A stretch of DNA of 59,942 nt from assembly GCA_938006875.1 (NCBI GenBank), contig CALLMJ010000025.1, positions 1-59,942 of the forward strand, written 5' to 3'. Below the pieces are notes generated by a model, which did not search any database, was not told the origin of the DNA, and saw only the letters and a list, made by a program, of their open reading frames with translations. The translations under genes were made by a program, and so were the position numbers. Source of the DNA: an uncultured Bacteroidia bacterium. GTDB taxonomy: Bacteria > Bacteroidota > Bacteroidia > J057 > CALLMJ01. This document shows, in pieces, positions 2,846 to 6,040 of the stretch; within the stretch, counting starts at the first letter, position 1, and every line of letters begins with the position of its first letter.

Positions 2846-3505
2846 ATGAAACTAGAAATTGAAATCACAAATGATGGCTCTTCCACGATTTTTATCCCTG
2901 AATGGAACGAAAGATACCATTCTAAAAATGGAGCTTTACAAGAATCTCTTTACATATATATTCAAAATGGACTTCATTATTTACAAAAAGATGTAATTCG
3001 TATTCTTGAAATTGGATTTGGTACGGGTTTGAATGTTTTACTTACTCATGCTCATCAGAAACCCAATACTTTTATTGATTATATAACTTTTGAGCCTTTT
3101 CCATTATCCCAAGATATTTACAACCAATTGAATTTTTCAGGTTTAAAGGGTTTAGAAAATTCTAAATATTTGCTAGATATATTGCATGAACTACCTAATA
3201 AGGAACCACTAAATCTTAATAAATTTTTTTCGTTTATGAAATACTACCAAACTATACAAGAATTTCAAACCACCCAAAAGTTTGATTTGGTTTATTGGGA
3301 CGCTTTTGGACCTAGGGTTCAACCAGAAATGTGGTCTTTAGAATTATGTCAAAAGATTTATCAATTATTAGAAAATGAAGGAATTATTGTTACTTATTGT
3401 TCACAAGGGCAGTTTAAGAGAAATTTAAAACAAGTAGGTTTTGAAGTAGAAGTTTTACCGGGTCCTCCATTTAAAAGAGAAATGACAAGAGCCATAAAAA
3501 AATAA
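2846..3505 (+). CDS. mnmD: tRNA 5-methylaminomethyl-2-thiouridine(34) methyltransferase, standalone MnmD
   Basis: 219 residues corresponding to the methyltransferase half of MnmC. It shows the SAM-binding motif EIGFGTG near residue 53 and the conserved DLVYWDAFGPRVQPEMWS segment near 147. The FAD oxidoreductase half of proteobacterial MnmC is absent, as is usual in Bacteroidota. The family methylates nm5s2U at the tRNA wobble position to mnm5s2U. Translation starts one base after the stop of the sensor-phosphatase gene, so the two are probably cotranscribed. The A-rich bases at its stop codon double as the U-run of the convergent structured RNA at 3504-3708. Confidence 0.9.
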   Translation: MKLEIEITNDGSSTIFIPEWNERYHSKNGALQESLYIYIQNGLHYLQKDVIRILEIGFGTGLNVLLTHAHQKPNTFIDYITFEPFPLSQDIYNQLNFSGLKGLENSKYLLDILHELPNKEPLNLNKFFSFMKYYQTIQEFQTTQKFDLVYWDAFGPRVQPEMWSLELCQKIYQLLENEGIIVTYCSQGQFKRNLKQVGFEVEVLPGPPFKREMTRAIKK

Positions 3506-3708
3506 AAAAAGCGTGTGGTGCGATTGGGTTATTTTGAAAACCTTCAATCAGACAAGATTTAAGAGCGTCTATAGCTTTGTAATCTTCCGTGTACTAACCA
3601 TTAAAGGTAATTCATACAAACTCATTGAGTTGAAGCCCGCCATTACTATAGGAATATCTCTATATTTCGTTTTGGTATAGGTTCAAAAAACGAATTTTCC
3701 CACACGCC
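3504..3708 (-). ncRNA. ssrS: Structured small RNA, candidate 6S RNA
   Basis: A 330-base gap between genes holds a rod-like RNA on the minus strand. GCGTGTGG (3707-3700) pairs with CCACACGC (3518-3511), and the latter runs straight into seven U (3510-3504), as in a 6S closing stem plus intrinsic terminator. Nested pairs follow: AGAG 3661-3658 with CTCT 3565-3562, CTATAG 3651-3646 with CTATAG 3574-3569, CTTC 3635-3632 with GAAG 3587-3584, TGTA 3618-3615 with TACA 3593-3590. Both flanks of the central bubble can form local hairpins (3694-3666; 3549-3522) or a long-range 9-bp helix (3688-3680 with 3542-3532), not both. A Bacteroidota promoter sits just upstream. Length (about 205 nt) and shape suit 6S RNA. 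No primary-sequence match was made, so the family name is an inference. Confidence 0.6.
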
Positions 3709-3712
3709 ATCA

Positions 3713-3742
3713 CAAAAATAACTCATTTTTATAAAAAACAAA
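3713..3742 (-). promoter_or_regulatory. Promoter of the 6S-like RNA
   Basis: On the minus strand TTTG (3742-3739) is followed after 18 nt by TATTTTTG (3720-3713), matching the Bacteroidota -33 TTG and -7 TAnnTTTG boxes. The predicted start falls at about 3708-3706, the first bases of the closing stem. This match is the main evidence that the RNA is read from the minus strand. Confidence 0.7.
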
Positions 3743-3835: not shown

Positions 3836-6040
3836 ATGCAATTTTTTAAGTCGTTATCCCTAAAAATTGATGCTATTCTTAATCCTAATCATCGGTTTTA
3901 TCCCATCAGAAAAAAATTATTACGTTTATTGGGGGTAGTAGTGGCTATTCATTTTCTTTTCTTTTTGATTTTGATTTGGGATATTCCATCTTTAAAGACA
4001 TTAGAAAATCCTAATTTGGCTGTTTCTACTCAGGTTTATTCAAGAGATGGAAAATTATTAGGAAATTTTTACGATGACCAATTTCGTATTAATATTCGTT
4101 ATAAAGATTTACCTAAAACACTTATTAACGCTTTAATAGCAACCGAAGATATTAGATTTTATCAACATCAAGGTGTTGATACCAGAGCATTGGGTGCTGT
4201 ATTTTTAGAAATGGTTGAAGGACGTGTTCGTGGAGGTTCAACCATAACCATGCAATTAGCTAGAAATATGTTTGATAATATTGGTAGAAAAAAAAGTATA
4301 TTTAGAAAAATGCGTGAAGCAATTGTTGCATGGCTTTTAGAAAGAAATTATTCCAAAGAGGAAATCTTAATGTTTTATTTTAATACGGTGAATTATGGTG
4401 GAAATATCCATGGAATTCAAACCGCTTCAAGAACTTATTTTAATAAAAATGCCAATGAATTACTCCCTCATGAAAGTGCTTTATTAGTGGGAATGTTAAA
4501 AGGTCCTTCATTATATCACCCCATAAAAAAACCTAAAAATGCCTTAGAAAGAAGAAATGTGGTTTTAAACCAACTTTTTAAATATGGCTATATTTCCAAA
4601 GAAGATTTAGAAAAATATAAATCAAAGCCTCTGGGTGTAGCAAATAAAAGTTCTTATCACGAGTATGTACCTCAAGGCACTGCTTTATATTTTAGGCAAG
4701 CCTTACAACAGTTTTTGAAAGAATGGTGCGAAAAAAATAATTATAACCTTTTTACGGATGGTCTAAAAATTTATACAACACTAGATTCACGTTTACAAGA
4801 ACATGCTGAAAAAGCTATACAAAAGCGTATCCCCTATTTACAGGATTTATTGAATCAAGAATTCAAATCACGAAAACCTTGGGAACAAAATGAACAAATA
4901 TTAATTGCTGCTATGAAACGTTCTCCCCGTTATCATATTGGTAAAAATGCAGGTTTATCAGAAGAAGAAATTAGAAAATCTTTTGATAGACATGTTTTAA
5001 TGAAATTATTTGATTGGAAATCCCCTAATTATGAAAAAGATACCGTTTTGACTCCATGGGATTCCTTAAAATATTTTGCTGGATTAATTCATTCGGGCTT
5101 GATTACTTTAGACCCTAGTAATGGGCATATTTTAGCTTATGTAGGTGGAATTGACTTCAAATTTTTTCCTTTGGATATTATAAAACAAGAAAGAAGGCAA
5201 GCAGGTACTATTTTTATGCCTTTTGTTTATGCTGCTGCTTTTGAAAAAGGTTATGAACCTTGTACCATAGAACAAAATACTCCTATTACTATCAAAACTC
5301 CAGAGGGAGATTTATGGACCCCCAAAAATATTGGTGGTTGGGTTACGGAGCCACTTCCTTTAATTCAAGCCTTTTCTATGATGTATAATATTGTAGTAAC
5401 TAGATTATCAGAAAAAATTTCTGTTGATTTTTTAATTGATATAGCAGGAAAATTAGGAATTACGTCACCTTTAAAGGCAGTACCTTCTCTGGGTATGGGA
5501 ACGGCAGACCTTAATTTATTTGAATTGGTTTCTGCTTATGCACCTTTTGCTAATCAAGGTACTTGGAATCAACCCATTTTTGTTACGAAAATTGAAGATA
5601 AAAACGGAAATTTACTAGCAGATTTTACTTCTAATCAAAGAAAAGCAATTTCTGAAAAAAGTGCTTACAATACTTTGGAATGTTTAAGATATACCGCAAA
5701 TAATGGTACTGCATTTGAGGCAAGAAGTAATTATCGTATTCCTGTAGATATTGCAGGAATGACGGGTAGAACTCAAAGCCATGCAGATAGTTGGTATGTG
5801 GGATTAACACCTAATACCGTTACTGCAATTTGGGCTGGTTGTATAGATAGAAGAGTATTTTTTAAATCGTATTATCACGGACAAGGGGCTTTTATGTGTC
5901 TTCCTATCTGGGGTGACTATATCCAAAATGCTTATTATGATTCTACCATTAACCTACCAGACCGTGCTTTCTATAAAAATTCTGATTATAAAATTTCTTT
6001 GAATTGTTTAAAAACAGAAATCAAAAAGGAAAAACAATAA
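3836..6040 (+). CDS. Class A PBP-like peptidoglycan glycosyltransferase with degenerate transpeptidase domain
   Basis: 734 residues: a cytoplasmic N-terminus, one membrane anchor near 35-52, a GT51 glycosyltransferase domain and a transpeptidase-fold domain. The GT51 motifs are intact: TEDIRFYQHQG with catalytic Glu104, GGSTITMQLARN at 133-144, and KEEILMFYFNTVNYGG. The transpeptidase motifs are not. The SxxK serine and lysine are Thr458 and Met461 (AGTIFMPF), SxN reads MYN (516-518) and KTG reads MTG (642-644), while the surrounding family sequence (LDPSNGHILAYVGG, DSWYVGLTPNTVTAIW) is well kept. The protein probably polymerises glycan strands but cannot acylate stem peptides. The gene stands alone, divergent from the 6S-like RNA. 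ATG 3836 fits the family start. Confidence 0.9.
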   Translation: MQFFKSLSLKIDAILNPNHRFYPIRKKLLRLLGVVVAIHFLFFLILIWDIPSLKTLENPNLAVSTQVYSRDGKLLGNFYDDQFRINIRYKDLPKTLINALIATEDIRFYQHQGVDTRALGAVFLEMVEGRVRGGSTITMQLARNMFDNIGRKKSIFRKMREAIVAWLLERNYSKEEILMFYFNTVNYGGNIHGIQTASRTYFNKNANELLPHESALLVGMLKGPSLYHPIKKPKNALERRNVVLNQLFKYGYISKEDLEKYKSKPLGVANKSSYHEYVPQGTALYFRQALQQFLKEWCEKNNYNLFTDGLKIYTTLDSRLQEHAEKAIQKRIPYLQDLLNQEFKSRKPWEQNEQILIAAMKRSPRYHIGKNAGLSEEEIRKSFDRHVLMKLFDWKSPNYEKDTVLTPWDSLKYFAGLIHSGLITLDPSNGHILAYVGGIDFKFFPLDIIKQERRQAGTIFMPFVYAAAFEKGYEPCTIEQNTPITIKTPEGDLWTPKNIGGWVTEPLPLIQAFSMMYNIVVTRLSEKISVDFLIDIAGKLGITSPLKAVPSLGMGTADLNLFELVSAYAPFANQGTWNQPIFVTKIEDKNGNLLADFTSNQRKAISEKSAYNTLECLRYTANNGTAFEARSNYRIPVDIAGMTGRTQSHADSWYVGLTPNTVTAIWAGCIDRRVFFKSYYHGQGAFMCLPIWGDYIQNAYYDSTINLPDRAFYKNSDYKISLNCLKTEIKKEKQ

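Follow-up and report, generated by a model that had tools for sequence, protein, structure and literature searches.

The window, by which we mean the whole 59,942-nucleotide stretch of DNA analysed here, carries on its minus strand an RNA gene of approximately 205 nt (3505-3709) that we read, with a probability of roughly 0.87, as the 6S RNA gene (ssrS) of its genome, encoding a divergent representative of a Bacteroidia family that spans the class, with a two-state cycle of the kind proposed below. 6S RNA clamps onto RNA polymerase and governs the amount of polymerase available. RNAs of this kind are already known; what is unusual in the present case is the evolutionary support for the switch. 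Assignment to the 6S type, which had been suggested in a preliminary description of the locus, is supported by homology (a sub-threshold match to RF01693, and a family that appears to embrace both RF01693 and RF01685), by the architecture of the RNA and by the zapA neighbourhood in which relatives are found. The gene occupies the gap between a Methyltransf_30 gene (2846-3505, plus strand) and a class A penicillin-binding protein gene (3836-6040, plus strand). Elsewhere in the window, an open reading frame on the plus strand (1-2844), open at the contig start, has the look of a beta-propeller sensor with a C-terminal SpoIIE-like phosphatase.

At family cut-offs, no Rfam family passes anywhere in the window. 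In a permissive scan, RF01693, which Rfam labels 'Bacteroidales-1, 6S-Bacteroidales RNA suggested', is the top match (3512-3704; 32.3 bits, E 0.0017 against all Rfam), and this is also the strongest RF01693 match genome-wide. The match runs end to end, with model positions 1-179 aligned and the core retained; its score falls below the gathering cut-off of 60 bits, so that the RNA is homologous to RF01693 yet lies outside the family as Rfam delimits it. Matches about as weak occur in 11 of the 22 genomes of the order, and the cut-off is passed in 8 of 295 class genomes. RF01685 (cut-off 85 bits) has no match at the locus, its best match in the genome lying elsewhere with an E of 3.2. Likewise, RF00013, the general 6S covariance model, has no match in the window's genome. 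Since RF00013 is also silent on the Bacteroidota loci matched by RF01693 or RF01685, it does not delimit 6S RNA in this phylum, and its failure at the window is weak counter-evidence; a match to it is a recognition tool rather than a functional definition of 6S. The search with the Rfam 6S model that the preliminary description proposed succeeded for the 6S-related RF01693, below threshold, and failed for RF00013. A blastn search against plasmids gives no match, and a DNA search across 60 relatives gives a full-length match in the sister genome only.

The RNA has the general 6S architecture, an approximately 200-nt rod with a closing stem, a central bubble and an apical stem, in which P1, P2 and the rod covary. 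The promoter, closing stem, nested rod and U-run that had been described on the minus strand of the gap are all present in their places. Specifically, and with all elements on the minus strand, the predicted -7 promoter element TATTTTTG (TAnnTTTG; 3713-3720) is exact in the window and in the sister genome, at -11 from the RNA start in both, and a candidate -33 element, TTG (3739-3741), precedes it by 18 nt, or 19 nt in the sister. The closing stem P1 is formed by GGCGUGUGG (3700-3708) and CCACACGC (3511-3518), with 3708-3700 facing 3511-3518 and covariation at 12 of 12 model pairs. It is followed by a U-run (3505-3510), the putative terminator, which stands behind P1 in nearly all relatives. 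Between P1 and the central bubble, the downstream helix P2 pairs UUUUGAACC (DNA TTTTGAACC; 3680-3688) with GGUU(UU)CAAAA (3532-3542). The apical rod, supported by fold and covariation, pairs CUAUAGU (3645-3651) with GCUAUAG (3569-3575), and a P2-constrained fold adds a lower apical helix of AGAG (3658-3661) with CUCU (3562-3565). Two internal-loop strands are conserved among relatives, AAUGGCGGGC (3635-3644), whose GGCGGGC region is nearly invariant, and GAUUAC (3579-3584).

Two hairpins compete with P2. The 5' hairpin H5, UUCGUUUU...AAAACGAA (DNA TTCGTTTT/AAAACGAA; 3666-3694), in which 3694-3687 pair with 3673-3666, holds the P2 5' strand in its loop. The 3' hairpin H3, GAUUG(AA)GGUU...AACCCAAUC (DNA GATTG(AA)GGTT/AACC-CAATC; 3522-3549), in which 3549-3539 pair with 3530-3522, uses the P2 3' strand.

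Comparison with relatives supports the closing stem, the rod and the long-range helix; the local hairpins gain such support within the order. In an alignment of 14 relatives (A2, the source of the internal-loop strands above), RNAalifold places 30 pairs, 23 of them with double compensatory changes. The covariance model R1 was built from A2 with pairs at P1 and the apical rod alone, the disputed region being left unpaired; the window sequence is included in it, so that the window's own R1 score (match at 3506-3709) holds by construction. Of 395 class genomes, 121 carry an R1 match, always at exactly one place, and 16 of the 22 genomes of the window's order are matched. The window's genome has one match, with its own promoter (TAnnTTTG) and U-run terminator as read from the sequence, as expected of a single gene. 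Among 100 aligned R1 matches (A3), 91.7% of cells pair and double changes fall at 26 of 27 pairs. When P2 is added to the model (R2), the resulting alignment A6 has double changes at 32 of 34 pairs, although an alignment fitted to the structure leans towards it. The compensatory changes that the preliminary description had asked for in related genomes are thus found. A search of the phylum with R2, in a sample mostly of lineages other than the class, matches 21 of 395. In A3 (columns ~307-319), the 3' strand of the bubble contains a conserved motif like AUNCAUGUCU, a possible '-10'-like element for the Bacteroidota sigma factor.

Shared match positions at two loci also connect the window RNA to both Rfam families. 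At a zapA-RNA-rny locus (L130), R1 matches in the identical place and on the identical strand as a strong RF01685 '6S-Flavo' match (115.9 bits), and at a locus found with RF01693 (L028), RF01685 (49.3 bits) and RF01693 (41.1 bits) match at one place, both below their cut-offs. From these coinciding matches we take the window RNA, Bacteroidales-1 and 6S-Flavo to form one family. RF01685 and RF01693 appear in Rfam as separate families without a clan; they should probably be merged under a structure containing both P1 and P2. The Rfam consensus structure for RF01693 has no pairs at positions 1-54 or at the 3' end and so lacks P1 and P2, a probable reason for the low reach of that model.

Among the 80 loci with enough flanking sequence, 35 have a ZapA gene as the immediate upstream neighbour of the RNA, on the RNA's own strand, and in 32 of these 35 the immediate downstream neighbour is an RNase Y gene (rny); the Pfam check of these neighbours gives E values of 1e-15 to 1e-19 for ZapA and 5e-44 for RNase Y. 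The ssrS gene likewise comes right after zapA in clusters of beta- and gamma-proteobacteria (PMC7641849). In the window's order, zapA, a typical though not obligatory neighbour of 6S genes, is not adjacent to the RNA. The zapA and rny neighbours of the window's genome are on another contig (G000:C22:38148-39093; L155 and L157) with only a short gap between them. This pair without the RNA suggests that, in the window's lineage, the gene moved away from its shared location between zapA and rny; it stands behind a predicted promoter of its own. The neighbours of the RNA differ even between the two species of the window's genus.

TAnnTTTG was considered and rejected as a general promoter of the relatives, being exact in only 13 of 100 (control mean 1.6, maximum 5), and the upstream regions led to another observation. 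GTTCTTT precedes the RNA in 52 of 100 relatives (shuffle controls: mean 0.5, maximum 3), approximately 44 nt before P1 (for example, in L054, L059, L066 and L150), and is absent from the window and the sister. The same GTTCTTTGA is present in the 16S leaders of L159 and L162. This shared occurrence suggests a boxA antitermination element carried by 6S precursors. In 16S leaders of the order (L158, L160, L163 and L164), GAGTTATTTGACAT replaces GTTCTTTGA and is perhaps a lineage-specific boxA variant.

The minus strand beats 199 of 200 dinucleotide shuffles in folding energy (-49.7 kcal/mol, z -3.2). Its single-sequence minimum-energy fold (-50.1 kcal/mol) was rejected as a guide because its 5' arrangement is different and unsupported by relatives, the 5' half being unconserved; folding this one sequence by itself would mislead. 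Forcing the long-range helix gives -45.2 kcal/mol and forcing both local hairpins -47.3 kcal/mol, a gap of 2.1 kcal/mol. The two competing folds of the preliminary description are thus present and in competition, but their roles are reversed with respect to it: the long-range helix, there taken for the alternative, is P2, the conserved ground-state helix, and H5 and H3 are the alternative state.

In a register-free swap test on 71 sequences below 75% identity, in which each species' own strand pair is compared with strands exchanged between species, P2 reaches a z of -12.5, with 0 of 5000 permutations as extreme (P1, the positive control, z -23; negative control, -0.7); shared ancestry is only partly corrected for in these figures and in the hairpin statistics below. 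On A6, P2 has double changes at 6 of 7 model pairs, and 88% of its cells are paired. Additionally, between the window and its sister, two P2 pairs are changed on both sides (A-U to G-C and C-G to U-A), and P2 is kept.

It is possible, though we hold it to be clearly the less probable reading, that the 6S RNA binds polymerase with no two-state switch, P2 being the sole functional arrangement and the hairpins by-products of an AT-rich sequence rich in inverted repeats. Across the class, the signals of H5 and H3 are indeed weak against control windows. H3 has a mean z of -0.94 (se 0.16), with internal controls at +0.10 and -0.19 but flank controls reaching -0.6 and -0.8. In the swap test, H3 (z -3.8) and H5 (z -2.6), in windows that were poorly centred at first, fall only modestly outside the control window pairs (-1.8 to +3.2), and given this spread we do not rely on the class-wide swap scores; a further control pair (columns 14-36 with 336-362; z -7.4) was set aside since it covers the P1-P2 flank. 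Several families, including Bacteroidaceae-type sequences, are without a stable H3, and the sister species loses the inner H3 pairs while retaining P2. Within the order, however, the hairpins stand out. In 15 genomes compared with dinucleotide shuffles, the mean z is -2.35 for H5 and -1.63 for H3, versus +0.26 and +0.18 for two internal control segments. Among nine relatives from the order, 4 of the 6 pairs of H5 carry double changes, a number that 0 of 500 shuffles reach, in a register chosen by eye and with sequences trimmed to fit. The local and long-range energies, moreover, lie within approximately 4 kcal/mol of each other in 14 of the 15 genomes, the exception being the sister species. 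H3 is moderately supported class-wide, and the support for the local hairpins is strongest in the window's order; by a slight balance of the evidence, we favour the view that evolution has maintained both states there, P2 and H5/H3 each with compensatory change and at near equal energy.

A contact in which H5 and H3 coexist with part of P2 as kissing loops, rather than as its alternative, is unlikely. It would suit the sister species, in which the entire P2 3' strand falls inside the loop closed by GAUUGG...CCCAAUC and the P2 5' strand inside that closed by AUUCGUUU...AAACGAAU; most of the order's relatives, by contrast, have the P2 3' strand (GGUUU) in the H3 stem itself, and the states are therefore mutually exclusive. 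Only marginally less improbable is a 6S-related structure with another trans-acting role, either as a binder of core polymerase like Ms1 or as an ordinary base-pairing sRNA. Ms1 shows that 6S look-alikes can have a different partner (PMC9130861), and the silence of RF00013 points the same way, whereas homology to 6S-Flavo and Bacteroidales-1, a zapA neighbourhood as in proteobacterial ssrS and the pRNAs reported for the Bacteroides 6S RNA (PMC7366714) argue against such a role. A chance structured intergenic region or a bidirectional terminator, free of RNA function, would fit a region that is short, AT-rich and 3' to a convergent gene; its single copy per genome across the class, its extensive compensatory change and the presence of both promoter and terminator leave this reading almost no probability, and we regard it as already refuted by the comparative data. 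Our preferred reading remains a 6S RNA with two alternating states.

In known 6S RNAs, polymerase uses the bubble's 5' side and the P2 5' strand as template for a pRNA; P2 unwinds, with a 3' hairpin forming in gamma-proteobacteria, and polymerase is released (PMC8876501). A 6S RNA with pRNAs, which may be the RF01693 locus, has been reported in Bacteroides thetaiotaomicron (PMC7366714), and pRNAs have been predicted in Bacteroidetes (Wehner et al. 2014, as cited by PMC7366714). The anatomy of the window RNA, with the P2 3' strand in H3 and the P2 5' strand in the H5 loop, fits this scheme. By analogy, we infer how the RNA would bind polymerase, template a pRNA and time its switch. The RNA would fold as an open-promoter mimic from P1, P2, the central bubble and the apical rod, and would occupy the active site of the housekeeping RNA polymerase holoenzyme, restraining polymerase as growth slows. 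When nucleotides return, polymerase would make a short pRNA templated by the bubble's 5' side and the P2 5' strand, with a sequence predicted to be that of the plus strand within ~3665-3690. pRNA synthesis would open P2, freeing its 3' strand for H3 while the 5' arm refolds into H5, and the refolded RNA would then be ejected and polymerase released.

A covariation analysis of RF00013 found the alternative 6S helix without support (PMC7657543). If true, the conservation of two states described here would be comparative evidence for an alternative 6S fold, alongside the joining of the window RNA with RF01693 and RF01685 in one family. At present, Bacteroidota 6S RNA is split in Rfam between two families, and most lineages escape both; a merged family with the full structure, P1 and P2 added, would provide a model that can be used across the class. 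A zapA-6S neighbourhood is shared between phyla, and the many natural variants of the family lend themselves to testing pRNA-driven refolding.

Compared with known systems, the window RNA resembles Ms1 of Actinobacteria in its 6S-like structure; Ms1 belongs to another phylum and binds core polymerase (PMC9130861). To 6S-Flavo (RF01685) the RNA is joined through the shared place of the RF01685 and R1 matches at L130, whereas the RF01685 model, which spans only approximately 108 inner positions, is silent at the window locus. Bacteroidales-1 (RF01693) shares its core (AAUGGCGGGC...GAUUACAAA, CUCnnAAAUCUUGUC), has a similar length and layout and matches end to end, but leaves unpaired the P1 and P2 that are clearly conserved in the window family. 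Canonical 6S RNA, as in E. coli and B. subtilis, differs in that its model RF00013 finds no match here, in the extra competing 5' hairpin of the window's order and in the zapA gene, which is not adjacent there. It is alike in its rod, closing stem, central bubble, apical stem, length of approximately 200 nt and single copy, as well as in the zapA neighbour, which is found in relatives of the window RNA. In the canonical cycle, the pRNA opens P2 and the 3' hairpin forms (PMC8876501), and the window RNA has the matching predicted anatomy.
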